A stretch of 45,574 nucleotides of DNA from Oscillospiraceae bacterium (lineage in GTDB: Bacteria; Bacillota; Clostridia; Oscillospirales; CAG-272), in the NCBI GenBank assembly GCA_015065135.1, contig SVQY01000016.1, positions 1-45,574 of the forward strand, read 5' to 3'. Under the pieces are notes generated by a model. It saw nothing but the letters and a program-made list of their open reading frames with translations. It ran no database searches and had not been told where the DNA came from. This document shows, piece by piece, positions 19,865-39,741 of the stretch. The number at the start of each line of letters is the position of its first letter. Position 1 is the stretch's first letter. Position numbers and translations under genes: made by a program.

Positions 19865-19892
19865 TTGACTTTTATAGGGAAGGTGATATAAT
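19865..19892 (+). promoter_or_regulatory. Promoter of the folT-folC transcript
   Basis: TTGACT (19865-19870), 16-base spacer, TATAAT (19887-19892). Transcription would start about ten bases before the riboswitch aptamer. Confidence 0.75.
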
Positions 19893-19903
19893 GAAACTAT
19901 CTT

Positions 19904-20008
19904 GAAGAGTAAGAGTTGTGGCGTCAAGTGCCGATGGGACGGGGAGTTGCCGGTCGGACGAAGGGCAAGATATACTTGCACCGCGGTCACCGCTCTGCAT
20001 CCCGCTTC
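19904..20008 (+). ncRNA. Tetrahydrofolate (THF-I) riboswitch aptamer
   Basis: The leader contains the conserved THF-I blocks in order: GAAGAGTA, GCGTCAAGTG, GATGGGACG...GTTGCC, CGAAGGGC, ACCGCGGTCACC and CTCTGCATCCCGCTTC. The closing helix pairs GAAG (19904-19907) with CTTC (20005-20008), and AGAG..GTGG pairs with the CCGCTCT region. It lies between a promoter and a gene for the folate transporter subunit, the classic target of this riboswitch. Binding of reduced folate is expected to lower expression of the downstream gene. Confidence 0.85.
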
Positions 20009-20031
20009 ATTTACAGAAAAGAGCGTATCGC

Positions 20032-20071
20032 CCTCCTTTTGTCGATGAATTTCGGGAAAAGGAGGTTTTTT
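20032..20071 (+). promoter_or_regulatory. Riboswitch expression platform: hairpin that hides the folT ribosome binding site and can act as terminator
   Basis: CCTCCTTTT (20032-20040) pairs perfectly with AAAAGGAGG (20057-20065), and the right arm is the ribosome binding site for ATG 20074. Six T residues (20066-20071) follow, so the same hairpin can sequester the ribosome binding site or terminate transcription. Confidence 0.75.
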
Positions 20072-20073
20072 GT

Positions 20074-21954
20074 ATGTCAAAAGAACAGGAAAAATTCAAA
20101 AAGAATGCACCCTTCAGCCTTGGCCGGCGATTGCGCCGTGATCTGGCGGTCTTTGGTAATCTGCGGGTGCTTTGCCTTGCCGCTATGCTGGCTGCGATGG
20201 GTGTGGTACTCGGCTATCTGGCCAAGCTCCTCTTTGGCACAGGGCCGTTGCGTATCACCTTTGAGAATCTGCCCATCATATTCGGCGGCATCACCTTCGG
20301 CCCCTTTATGGGGGCGATGATCGCTGTCATCTCCGATCTTTGCAGCTGCCTGTTTTCAGGGCAGGGACCCAATCCGCTCATTGCGGTGGGCTCGGTATCT
20401 ATCGGCTTTTTCTCCGGCTTTTTCGGAAATTATCTGTTTCGCCGCCGTCGCTTTTTTCATCTTTTTCTGGTAGAGGAGCTGACGCATCTCATTGGCTCGG
20501 TAACGATCAAGTCGCTGGCCCTTTATACCATGGGCTACGCGTGGCCGCTGCTGCTGCCCAGGCTTCCTATTTACATTGCCATTGCCTGTTGTGAGGCGGC
20601 GATGCTGCGCGTGCTGCTGCAAAGCCGACATCTGAACGAGCTCCTGGAGCGCATACTGCCCACTCCCAAGGAGGAGAGAACGATGACCTATGAAGAAGCC
20701 TTGGCCTATATCCATTCGGTGGTCTGGAAGGGGAGTCGCCCCGGCCTGGAGCGTATCACCGAGCTTTTGGAAAAGCTGGGCAATCCGCAGGATAAGCTGC
20801 GCTTTATCCACGTGGCGGGCACCAACGGCAAGGGGTCCTTTTGCTCGATGACAGAATCGGTCCTGCGCGCCGCAGGCTATAAGACCGGCCTGTTCGTTTC
20901 GCCCTATATCAAGCATTTCAACGAGCGTATCTGCGTTTCCGGCGTTCCCATTGATAATGAGGCGTTGGCCAGAGCCACCGCTGCGGTCAAGCCGATCGCC
21001 GACAGTATGGCGGATGCCCCCACCGAGTTTGAATTGATCACGGCCATCGGCTTTGTCCATTTTGTGGAATGCGGATGCGATATCGTGGTGCTGGAGACGG
21101 GTATGGGAGGCAGACTGGATTCCACCAACGTGATCAAGGATCCGCTCTTTACCGTCATTACCGGCATCGCTATGGATCATACCGCTTTTCTCGGTGATAC
21201 GGTAGAAAAGATCGCTGCCGAAAAGGCAGGGATCATCAAAAGGGGCGCACCTGTGCTGTGGGGTGGGCGTGACGCCGCCGCCAGAGCGGTGATCGCCGCC
21301 AAAGCCGAGGAGCTGGGCGTGCCGATGCTTGCCACCGAGGATCAGCCGCTGACGGTACGAAAAATGACGCTGAACGGTACCGTGGCAGATTACGGCGCGT
21401 GGCAGAACGTGCGCATCTCGCTGCTTGGTAGCTATCAGCCGCGCAACCTTGCCAACGTGCTGGCAGCCGTTCCGCTGATGCGGGAGGCAGGGCTGAATAT
21501 CCCGGACGAGGCGGTCTATCAGGGGCTTGCCGCCGCCCGTTGGCCCGGGCGCTTTGAAAAGCTTTCGGATCAGCCGCTGATCCTTTCCGACGGTGCCCAC
21601 AACCCCGAGGGCGTGGATGCGGCGGTGGAGAGCATCAAGGCGTATTTCCCCAACGAAAAGGTGCTGCTTTTGTCGGGCGTGATGGCAGATAAGGATTATC
21701 GCGGCATGGTGGAGACCCTTGCTCCCATCGCTGCCGAGGCCTTTACCCTGACACCGGATAATCCCCGTTCGCTTCCTGCTGCGGATTTTGCCGAGGCCTT
21801 CAAGGAGGGTGGCGTTCCCGCCACTGCCTATGATACCGTTGCCGCGGCGGTCGCTGCGGCCGTGGCAAGGGCAAGGGAGACCGGCAAGCCGCTTGTTTCG
21901 CTCGGTTCTCTGTATATGTATTGCGAGGTCACAAACGCCTTGGAAAATCTATGA
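20074..21954 (+). CDS. FolT-FolC fusion: ECF folate transporter S component joined to folylpolyglutamate synthase
   Basis: 626 residues in one open frame. Residues 1-203 match FolT, the membrane S component of ECF folate transporters: AAMLAAMGVVLGYLAKLLF, RITFENLPIIFGGITFGP, five or six hydrophobic helices, ending LNELLERILPTPKEERT. Residues 204-626 are a complete FolC: MTYEEALAYIHSVVWKGSRP, the P-loop HVAGTNGKGSF, the folate loop FVSPYIKHFNERI, MGGRLDSTNVI, AEKAGIIK and SDGAHNPEG. FolC adds glutamates to folate in the cytoplasm and so traps it. ATG 20074 uses AAAAGGAGG. Inside the frame, AAGGAGG at 20668-20674 lies eight bases before ATG 20683 (Met204), so free FolC could also be made. The A and T components are not in the window. 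Confidence 0.88.
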   Translation: MSKEQEKFKKNAPFSLGRRLRRDLAVFGNLRVLCLAAMLAAMGVVLGYLAKLLFGTGPLRITFENLPIIFGGITFGPFMGAMIAVISDLCSCLFSGQGPNPLIAVGSVSIGFFSGFFGNYLFRRRRFFHLFLVEELTHLIGSVTIKSLALYTMGYAWPLLLPRLPIYIAIACCEAAMLRVLLQSRHLNELLERILPTPKEERTMTYEEALAYIHSVVWKGSRPGLERITELLEKLGNPQDKLRFIHVAGTNGKGSFCSMTESVLRAAGYKTGLFVSPYIKHFNERICVSGVPIDNEALARATAAVKPIADSMADAPTEFELITAIGFVHFVECGCDIVVLETGMGGRLDSTNVIKDPLFTVITGIAMDHTAFLGDTVEKIAAEKAGIIKRGAPVLWGGRDAAARAVIAAKAEELGVPMLATEDQPLTVRKMTLNGTVADYGAWQNVRISLLGSYQPRNLANVLAAVPLMREAGLNIPDEAVYQGLAAARWPGRFEKLSDQPLILSDGAHNPEGVDAAVESIKAYFPNEKVLLLSGVMADKDYRGMVETLAPIAAEAFTLTPDNPRSLPAADFAEAFKEGGVPATAYDTVAAAVAAAVARARETGKPLVSLGSLYMYCEVTNALENL

Positions 21955-21994
21955 AAAAAGCGTGCATCCGCCATGGCGGATGCACGCTTTTTTT
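21954..21994 (+). terminator. Terminator of the folT-folC transcript
   Basis: A perfect stem AAAAAAGCGTGCATCCGCC / GGCGGATGCACGCTTTTTT with a 3-base ATG loop and a T-tail, starting on the last base of the stop codon. Confidence 0.92.
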
Positions 21995-22062: not shown

Positions 22063-22091
22063 GCACGTGTGCGCCAAAAACGCGCATACGT
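22063..22091 (+). other. 5' leader hairpin upstream of the phage-tail-like genes
   Basis: ACGTGTGCGC pairs with GCGCATACGT (ten pairs, one G-T) around a CAAAAAC loop. No T-tract follows, so it is not a terminator; it may stabilise the mRNA or regulate translation. A smaller CGGGA/TCCCG hairpin precedes it. Confidence 0.45.
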
Positions 22092-22123
22092 GTACGAAAA
22101 AACAAGAAAAAAGGAGGATTTTT

Positions 22124-22906
22124 ATGCCACAGATCGTGTGCAATATTTCTTTGGATGTCTCGGTGGATCACACCGAGCAGACCTTTGCCGCAAAGCAGGG
22201 GGATTCGCAGAGCCGATTGCTTTGCGTGACCTTTACCGATTGCGGTAAGCCGCTGCCCATTGAGCGCCAAGCGGTGGTGCTGCTGAACGTCAAGAAGGGG
22301 GAGGAGACCGCCTCCTTTGAGGGAGCGGTTACCGAGGAGGGAAAGGCACTTTTCGTCATCCCGGATTTCGTGCTGGCCGAGGCCGGTCGCGTGCGTTGTG
22401 ATGTTTCTGCCATCGGCCGCACGGGCGGCCGCTTGACGACCGCGGATTTTGTGATCGCGGTGGAGGAGACCGTGGCGCCCGGCGGTGAGCTTGGCAGCGA
22501 CGCGGCCATTTCGGATCTGGCTGCGGAATTTATCGCGTCGCAGCGGCTTTTGCCGCTCCTTCCCACAGTAGAAGGGGAGGGCTATCTGCTTTCGCCTGCC
22601 GTTAATCACAAATATACGCTGGATCTTTCGGATAGCAGCTACGCGCCGGAAGGCGTTTGGAAGCCGTTTCGTCTTGTGCTGCCTCGGCCGCAGGATGCAG
22701 CAAGAGAAAACTGGATCCTGATCTACTGCCACGCGCCATTGACTGCTGGTGGAGATGCGCTGCAGATCACGCTTGACGAGAGCTGCCTTTTGGCCGACGG
22801 CGTGCAGCCGTCGATCTCTTTTGCGGATTTTGACCTACTCTGCACCTACTCCGCAGGAGCCGGTGCGTGGCAGATCGGCTTTGTGCAATATCAGAAAAAG
22901 GGGTAA
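22124..22906 (+). CDS. BppU-like phage baseplate upper protein
   Basis: 260 residues. The N-terminal ~125 residues follow the BppU family pattern: a beta-strand start (IVCNISLDVSV), the AAKQGDSQSRLLCVTFTD motif, AVVLLNVKKGEE, ALFVIPDFVLAEAGRVRCDV and TADFVIAVEETV. In lactococcal and related phages this domain joins the receptor-binding tip to the baseplate. The C-terminal half (LLPTVEGEGYLLSPAV...) is a beta-rich domain not recognised. The start is ATG 22124 after AAAGGAGG; an upstream ATG at 22067 lies inside the leader hairpin. The gene is paired with the next one, seven bases apart. No head, tail-tube, lysis or integrase genes are nearby, which is odd for a phage gene. Confidence 0.72.
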   Translation: MPQIVCNISLDVSVDHTEQTFAAKQGDSQSRLLCVTFTDCGKPLPIERQAVVLLNVKKGEETASFEGAVTEEGKALFVIPDFVLAEAGRVRCDVSAIGRTGGRLTTADFVIAVEETVAPGGELGSDAAISDLAAEFIASQRLLPLLPTVEGEGYLLSPAVNHKYTLDLSDSSYAPEGVWKPFRLVLPRPQDAARENWILIYCHAPLTAGGDALQITLDESCLLADGVQPSISFADFDLLCTYSAGAGAWQIGFVQYQKKG

Positions 22907-22912
22907 GACGGT

Positions 22913-24115
22913 ATGAGTTTTTCCATCAAACAGCATAGTTTGCTGCGAGAAAGCCGCCGTCCGCGCGCCTATACCGTCCTTTTTCCGGACCCCGCATCGC
23001 CCAAGGGCGTGCGCTGCGATCTGGCAGCAGGGATGGTCGCCAACGTGGCAGTTGGCGCAGGCGTGACGGTGCGCAATGATTTTGATGACGTGCCGATCTT
23101 TCAGCGCCCCATCTTCAATGCCACCTGGGATGCCGCAAGCGGTCGCTGGACCGATCTTGTGGCCATAGGAGATGAGGCGTTCCGTTGGCATCCCTTTAGG
23201 GATTATCGGGAGGTCGTCTATCGCTGCACGCCCTTCTGGTACCGTATAGTGCCACGCAGCGAAACAGGCCCGGCGCTGGTGTCGGTCGCTGACAGTCCTC
23301 TGGAGGGCTATACGCTGGCACCGATGTTTCGTAACGGGCAGGATTACGTTTACCGTCCCGTTTTTGAGCTGGCCAAGGATAGCGACGGCCTGCCGCATTC
23401 CCGATCCGGCTTGAAGCCGATCTGCGATATCGGTACCACTGTGGTGATGCCGTTGGCACGTAGCTACGATGCCAGAGCCCGTGTGGAAAGCGTTTTCGAT
23501 TGGTTCAGCGACAGTCTTTTGCAGCTTGTTGAGTTTGCCACCTGGGATCTGCATTCTCTGATGAGCGGCCAGAAAAGTACGTATGCCAATACCGGCAGCT
23601 GCATCCCGAAGCTTTCGGCCAGCTCCGGGTGCCTTGGCGACGGATTGGCGATGGCGTGGCGCGGCAAAGAGAATGCGTGGAAGAACACCTGCTCCTTCCT
23701 GTGTGATATCCTGATCCAAAAGCATATCGCCGACGATGGCAGCTATACCACCACCATCTGTCATCTGCCCGATATGCAATATTTCGACGGCCTCATCAAC
23801 GAGCATTACGTAGAGATCGCACCCTACTTCTCCAACGTGGTCAGCGCTCAGTTTGCCGTGGGGGGATTCGCGATGAAGAACGGTGTGTTTTACCCGTGCG
23901 CGGAGGCAAAGGAGGGAACAGCGCCCAAGGCGTATGCGTATCTTAATAGTCAGTTGGCCGAAAAGTATCCCATTATGGTGGGCGTTGGCGGCAATACGAT
24001 GACCAATATGCTTACCTCTGCCACGCCCTCCTCCCCCTTCCATTGGGAGGCGGTGCAGCGGATGCAGGGACGTGAGACCAATTTCGGCGGCAGATTGATC
24101 CTGGACGAGGCGTAA
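22913..24115 (+). CDS. Unrecognised protein, probable phage tail-fibre or receptor-binding partner of the BppU-like protein
   Basis: 400 residues, not matched to a specific family. The sequence is rich in aromatic residues, Gly, Ser and Asp, with beta-type segments (RRPRAYTVLFPDPA, VYRCTPFWYRIVPRS). A central stretch, FDWFSDSLLQLVEFATWDLH and then a CSFLCDILIQK block after ENAWKN, is followed by repeats of hydrophobic strands, ending FGGRLILDEA, which resembles the GGRL end of phage C-type-lectin-fold tail proteins. No signal peptide or membrane segment is seen. It follows the BppU-like gene by seven bases, with GGGGTAAGACGGT before the ATG, so the two are cotranscribed. A receptor- or glycan-binding role is inferred from the partner only. 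Confidence 0.5.
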   Translation: MSFSIKQHSLLRESRRPRAYTVLFPDPASPKGVRCDLAAGMVANVAVGAGVTVRNDFDDVPIFQRPIFNATWDAASGRWTDLVAIGDEAFRWHPFRDYREVVYRCTPFWYRIVPRSETGPALVSVADSPLEGYTLAPMFRNGQDYVYRPVFELAKDSDGLPHSRSGLKPICDIGTTVVMPLARSYDARARVESVFDWFSDSLLQLVEFATWDLHSLMSGQKSTYANTGSCIPKLSASSGCLGDGLAMAWRGKENAWKNTCSFLCDILIQKHIADDGSYTTTICHLPDMQYFDGLINEHYVEIAPYFSNVVSAQFAVGGFAMKNGVFYPCAEAKEGTAPKAYAYLNSQLAEKYPIMVGVGGNTMTNMLTSATPSSPFHWEAVQRMQGRETNFGGRLILDEA

Positions 24116-39454: not shown

Positions 39455-39741
39455 TAAGAAAAGCGATGACAGGAAACAAATCTTGCGGCGCAGCAAAGAG
39501 AGTTGCCGGTTGGTGTAAGGCAATATGCAAGGCAGGGAATAACTCATCCTCGAGCTGTCGGTCCAAAGGCGCGAGCCAAGTAGAACCGAACGGGATCTCC
39601 CGTTACAGAGAAGTCGTGTGCAGGCATGACGCCAAGTGGGTGCATCGCACCAAGCAGAGTGGTACCGCGGGGAGAAGTCTTCGTCTCTTTTATGCAAAGC
39701 AAACGTTCTGTGCTGTTGCGTAAAAGGGGCTTTTTGTTTTT
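39455..39741 (+). ncRNA. T-box leader, leucine-specific, with antiterminator and terminator
   Basis: The T-box core TGGTACCGCGG is at 39660-39670, preceded by the AGAG arm of the antiterminator. In Stem I the candidate specifier codon is CTC (39543-39545, in AATAACTCATC), a Leu codon. The terminator pairs CTCTTTTATGC (39685-39695) with GCGTAAAAGGG (39718-39728) over all eleven positions and is followed by T5-G-T5. The antiterminator needs GTCTCT around 39684-39689, so the two structures exclude one another. Uncharged tRNA-Leu should allow read-through into leuA. Confidence 0.9.

Follow-up and report, generated by a model that had tools for sequence, protein, structure and literature searches.

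We found a gene in an Oscillospiraceae bacterium (GenBank assembly GCA_015065135.1) in which a FolT-family ECF S component and a full FolC are encoded by a single uninterrupted frame of 626 codons (Table 1). The window, the 45,574-nucleotide stretch of contig SVQY01000016.1 analysed here, carries this gene on the forward strand. Our preferred reading, to which we give a probability of about 0.7, is a bifunctional salvage protein controlled by a THF riboswitch, in which a FolT-tethered folylpolyglutamate synthase would trap imported folate. The recurrent fusion of these two known families, a transporter and an enzyme, is real and possibly undescribed. The earlier note on this DNA had suspected as much, and no description of a FolT-FolC fusion was recognised among the papers listed by literature searches; one may be recorded in subscription papers or in protein-database architecture listings.

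Table 1. Features of the fusion gene and its flanks (window positions)
Feature	Position	Strand	Details and basis
Promoter-like site	19865..19892	+	TTGACT - 16 - TATAAT, TG before second hexamer; 11/12 consensus matches; consensus match only
THF class-I riboswitch aptamer (RF01831)	19903..20009	+	74.8 bits against a gathering score of 36; covers the whole model (1-99)
Leader hairpin	20032..20065	+	CCUCCUUUU (20032-20040) paired with fusion-ORF Shine-Dalgarno AAAAGGAGG (20057-20065); predicted fold
folT-folC fusion gene	20074..21954	+	626 aa; ORF and family profiles
FolT part with linker	20074..20682	+	Residues 1-203, six helices in residues 30-183; profile and model
Internal Shine-Dalgarno	20668..20674	+	AAGGAGG, 8 nt before FolC ATG (20683); sequence and anti-SD duplex
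FolC part	20683..21954	+	Residues 204-626, own ATG start; profile and fold comparison
Terminator-like stem	21954..21993	+	18 pairs, directly 3' of stop codon; sequence and terminator scan

The fused gene and its two halves

The earlier note had read the frame as a complete S component followed by a complete FolC, and both halves indeed score over their family cut-offs. The FolT half reached 81.4 bits against TIGR04518 (cut-off 60), and 85.2 bits in a search of its own genome, where the fusion is the only FolT over that cut-off. A predicted model of the fusion places all six helices within the FolT part, with the fold comparison dominated by FolC/Mur-ligase matches. In the first helix, the alanines of an AxxxA motif (A37 and A41) were invariant across eight FolT sequences; passages of PMC11109136 tie this motif to ECF assembly. 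The pocket residues of E. faecalis FolT, as named in passages of PMC4525288, are partly preserved. In a profile alignment read by eye, D64, R142 and K36 (as R) are kept and R26 is probably K, whilst F80, T81 and K145 are not kept.

The closest solved structure to the FolT profile was 4z7f (6.2e-8); the single FolT sequence matched only RibU in the PDB (0.0018). The solved FolT chains (E. faecalis 4z7f, L. brevis 4huq and L. delbrueckii 5d3m/5d0y, species as given in parts of PMC4525288 and PMC4820897) are 174-199 residues long and stand alone, whereas the FolT described here has 423 FolC residues appended and a partly different pocket. A gene for EcfT (PF02361) was found on a separate contig of the same genome (G000:C44, 158.3 bits), and EcfT was present in 12 of 13 same-genus genomes including this one, two of the 12 being partial matches. 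A motor encoded apart from its S component is what marks group II ECF transporters, and EcfT was the motor subunit searched for here.

The FolC half scored 375 bits against TIGR01499 (cut-off 162.65) and carries the Mur-ligase middle and C-terminal domains (PF08245 and PF02875), the P-loop GTNGKGS and the DGAHN motif. The model matched the FolC fold, and the nearest solved FolC was L. casei FPGS (2.7e-82). Solved FolC proteins are single and soluble. Compared with L. casei FPGS (1fgs/2gca) and E. coli FolC (1w78), the fused FolC is instead tethered behind six membrane helices. This half would most likely act as a folylpolyglutamate synthase in folate salvage.

The fusion gene is probably transcribed alone. 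The stem behind its stop codon is symmetrical, so that the scan called it on the reverse strand, although the forward strand also has a T run. The region held five terminator-like sites (shuffle mean 2.8) and four promoter-like sites (shuffle mean 1.4). Downstream of the fusion lie two consecutive ORFs of 279 and 400 aa (22067-22906 and 22913-24115), neither with a Pfam match at 1e-5. Elsewhere in the window, a T-box leader (RF00230, 104.3 bits) occupies 39457-39691.

Distribution and origin of the fusion

The search for other FolT-FolC proteins that the earlier note proposed covered 98 relatives, 395 family genomes, 197 order genomes and 199 phylum genomes, and 136 genomes (135 of the family and one of the order) were searched again for complete rows. 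A profile check of 148 fetched loci with 134 distinct FolC genes yielded at least 24 distinct fusions, one ORF each. Of the 395 family genomes sampled, at least 22, from 11 genera, carried a fusion; at least one fusion (G502) occurred among 184 order genomes of other families, and one more was found on a named contig (L034). All eight divergent fusions scanned passed both curated cut-offs, FolT and FolC. The counts are minima, since the matches for the order and phylum samples were listed only up to a limit and a strongly diverged FolT would have escaped being linked to its FolC. In the sample of 199 phylum genomes, among the matches listed, only that of the window's own genome (G000) spans both parts without a stop. 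Of 110 plasmid records with a match, not one contained 80% of the query at a single location. The named relatives with matches were MAGs assigned to Oscillospiraceae or Clostridia, and the labels of some give roe deer caecum.

The 24 distinct fusions rule out a fusion unique to one strain. Other candidates with long open frames (G338, G173, G186, G291, G251 and G283 among them) were rejected, as FolT and FolC lay in different frames or were separated by a stop in the fetched DNA. Several loci had further peculiarities. The only fused genome found outside the family (G502; L089, L141) also has a second, stand-alone FolC. Beside the far end of the fused gene at L112 (G188) lies a second FolT-like frame of 56 bits on the same strand. 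At L082 (G232:C65) a tandem pair of FolC genes follows a single FolT. In L090 and L094, of family f78, FolC occupies an unusually long frame of 738-827 codons, and the FolT profile has no match there.

Two separate genes in all related strains would, according to the earlier note, refute the fusion, and this is not what the relatives show. Of the 20 genomes of the genus with a folC match, 4 carry the fusion and the other 16 have two adjacent or overlapping genes; another genome of the genus (G007, 52% complete) gave only a weak folC match. The two-gene units of the genus and family have the same genes, order and strand and the same THF riboswitch (all 16 loci tested), but they comprise two frames with two products, whereas the fusion is one frame with no stop.

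Little change would be needed to join the genes. Among 113 loci with adjacent or fused folT-folC pairs, a set enriched for fusions by the choice of loci, 42 pairs overlap (29 by ATGA), 35 are 0-20 nt apart, 12 are further apart and 24 are fused. In 16 of the 89 unfused pairs the two genes already share one frame; at L010, for example, the folT stop touches the FolC ATG. Joining thus needs little, since pairs are so often overlapping, close or in a shared frame.

The fused state is scattered over the gene trees. By parsimony the state changes 17 times on a FolC tree of 133 rows and 16 times on a FolT tree of 111 rows; these counts do not tell gain from loss, both trees were quick ones, and the loci had been chosen to include fusions. 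Shuffling the labels on the FolC tree 200 times gave 18-24 changes (mean 21.8), so the observed 17 indicate only some clustering of the fused state. With 16-17 changes, a single old fusion inherited by all can be rejected, and joining seems to have happened many times. In a careful tree of 21 genus-level rows (20 genus genomes plus L034), a single fused clade was rejected by FolC (p-AU 6.8e-8) and not by FolT (p 0.078).

The two halves also differ in their histories. In the genus set (L001-L025, L034) the two gene trees disagree, and there are two deep FolT types, with fusions in 5 of 10 rows of one and none of 11 of the other. With G006, G003 and G004, respectively, the protein described here shares 84, 82 and 78% identity in FolC, whereas in FolT it shares only 47, 45 and 47%. 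Going by these trees and identities, the two halves probably came to have separate histories through recombination at the folT/folC junction.

Linkers in the fusions are 5-19 residues long. In the closest relative, G017, at 84% identity, the fusion recurs and its linker is of equal length and aligns without gaps; the 14 linker codons differ at 6, 6 and 10 sites at codon positions 1, 2 and 3, respectively. By this comparison the linker is unconstrained between the closest pair. As it changes freely, there is no sign of selection on the joining of the halves.

A rival reading is a neutral loss of the folT stop, in which a close gene pair was joined by a small change and the product still works as two separate proteins, with free FolC dominant where it is made and no coupling. 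The closeness of the pairs, the genes already in one frame, the scatter of the fused state and the free linker fit this account, and we regard it as a genuine possibility, if not the probable one. The state of the FolC start across the fusions, described below, bears on it in both directions.

Signals for expression of the two halves

The FolC start within the fusion survives in the window, a point missed by the earlier note. Its Shine-Dalgarno forms a predicted anti-SD duplex of -11.4 kcal/mol. Of 2859 ATG, GTG and TTG codons lying in frame within FolC genes, taken as background, only about 0.1% reach this value, and the mean over 102 FolC starts from unfused genes was -6.94 kcal/mol. A predicted local fold pairs part of this site, yet is weaker than that of shuffled sequence. 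Because the FolC ATG survives with a strong Shine-Dalgarno, free FolC is probably made as a second product in the window's species, and membrane-bound FolC is hence probably not its sole product. A good internal FolC start is also kept in G017, G018, G209 and G311 (-7.9 to -8.9). Such strong internal sites are as expected if the stop was lost neutrally.

The usual FolC start codon (ATG/GTG/TTG) is replaced in 8 of 24 fusions (AAG in G040, TCA in G183, AAA in G261, CTG in G131, ACC in G502, GGT in G129, AAC in G188 and CCG in G431), the start column having been extrapolated beyond the profile match in G502, G129, G188 and G431. Four of the 24 (G183, G261, G502 and G431) have no ATG, GTG or TTG within eight codons either side of that column, and G040 has nearby just a TTG without a Shine-Dalgarno. 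In G131 an ATG with a good Shine-Dalgarno (-8.2) lies six codons past the replaced start, and G129 and G188 have other candidate FolC starts nearby. A further four loci (L041, L042, L022 and L044) keep the ATG without a good Shine-Dalgarno. The replaced start is common to the three g21 species.

It therefore seems that FolC persists as a fusion in several lineages, the start being absent or the ATG lacking a good Shine-Dalgarno, and in four or five fusions there appears to be little scope for making FolC by itself. The absent starts, the ATG codons without a good Shine-Dalgarno and the replacement common to the g21 species count against a joining that is neutral throughout, and a membrane anchor on an essential enzyme would not obviously be cost-free.

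The leader of the fusion gene contains a predicted hairpin that would hide the upstream Shine-Dalgarno. The fold of positions 20010-20090 has a predicted energy of -25.3 kcal/mol (z -3.57), and the hairpin also appears in the fold of the whole leader. In the model, this hairpin may be the expression platform, acting by hiding the Shine-Dalgarno or as a terminator, and one element could serve both; termination comes into question because a U run directly follows the hairpin (20032-20073). A THF riboswitch was found upstream of 23 of 24 fusions, and the remaining locus, L005, has almost no upstream DNA.

The leader could in principle split expression of the two halves, whether the joining is functional or neutral. 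At high THF the hairpin would block the upstream start only, such that the transporter stops whilst free FolC continues to be made. The predicted hiding of the upstream site, with the internal one outside the control of the hairpin, would permit this. On the other hand, the hairpin and U run could be a terminator that shuts off both products, and the arrangement is impossible in fusions without an internal start. We consider split expression unlikely.

Finally, a sequencing or assembly indel joining two truly separate genes is exceedingly improbable as the cause of the fusion, for although the source is a draft genome (88 contigs, 84% complete), G017 carries the same fusion and 22 further distinct fusions occur in other assemblies, so that independent assemblies agree.

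Folate salvage and the role of the tether

Next, the folate physiology of the fused organisms was considered. DHPS (TIGR01496) was over its cut-off in none of 23 fused genomes (that of L034 being outside the set) and in none of 21 same-genus genomes. Of the 23 fused genomes 7 had weak DHPS matches, as did 6 of the 21; these lie in frames of about 790-970 codons and are probably methionine synthase. DHFR of the PF00186 type was found in none of the 13 same-genus genomes searched. Since the window's genome is 84% complete, single absences are weak; the pattern nonetheless holds across relatives. By gene content the fused organisms seem to live by salvaging folate, perhaps in reduced form, and FolC would be their FPGS. 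The role of trapping enzyme that the earlier note gave to FolC fits these absences. Passages of PMC1971073 predict a monofunctional FPGS for folate salvagers, and also argue that an organism using folate needs some DHFR activity even where no DHFR can be recognised. That argument speaks against a diet of reduced folate alone.

Polyglutamylation retains folate in cells. In the salvage protein we favour, the FolT part would be the folate-binding S component, borrowing the separate ECF motor, and would deliver folate, probably reduced folate, into the cell. FolC, joined to the cytosolic end of FolT by a short floppy linker, would then add glutamates so that the folate cannot leave. The helix count and positive N-terminus, read in the usual way, would put FolC on the cytosolic side. 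In the window's species the internal ribosome site would probably yield free FolC as well, whilst in some relatives that have lost the FolC start the enzyme may be made mainly or only as the fusion. We infer that both halves are active, that FolC is cytosolic and also made free, and that tethering aids trapping or coordinates the two activities. Against this best explanation, close relatives manage with two separate genes.

A stronger version would be a recurrently evolved, coupled import-and-trap device, with the S component passing reduced folate directly, on the inner side of the membrane, to the glutamylating enzyme that it carries. The earlier note had proposed such transport-coupled polyglutamylation. 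The real and recurrent fusion on which the proposal was built stands, but the unconstrained linker and the strong internal Shine-Dalgarno do not favour coupling, and we consider the device rather doubtful. Passages of PMC4820897 and PMC10368641 describe FolT as toppling, as releasing its folate when it docks to EcfT, and as being expelled on ATP binding. If the coupled device is true, the ECF cycle must cope with about 46 kDa of cytosolic protein attached to its toppling component, and uptake and retention of an essential vitamin would become one linked act.

The 5TMR sensor kinases, as described in passages of PMC11109136, are a related case, in that S-component-like membrane domains of the same fold carry cytosolic domains. 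Those proteins are receptors with signalling domains, whereas the protein described here carries a metabolic enzyme acting on its presumed cargo. The terms 'Mur ligase' and 'folylpolyglutamate' are absent from the main text of that paper.

Should the two halves function together, the fusion would be an unusual example of a vitamin transporter with a trapping enzyme of its own, one that arose repeatedly in apparent folate non-makers. It would then offer a natural test of whether a toppling ECF S component can bear so large an attachment, and of whether folate uptake is limited by polyglutamylation. Even under neutral joining, the series of overlapping pair, fusion with an internal start and fusion without one shows how transporter-enzyme fusions arise.
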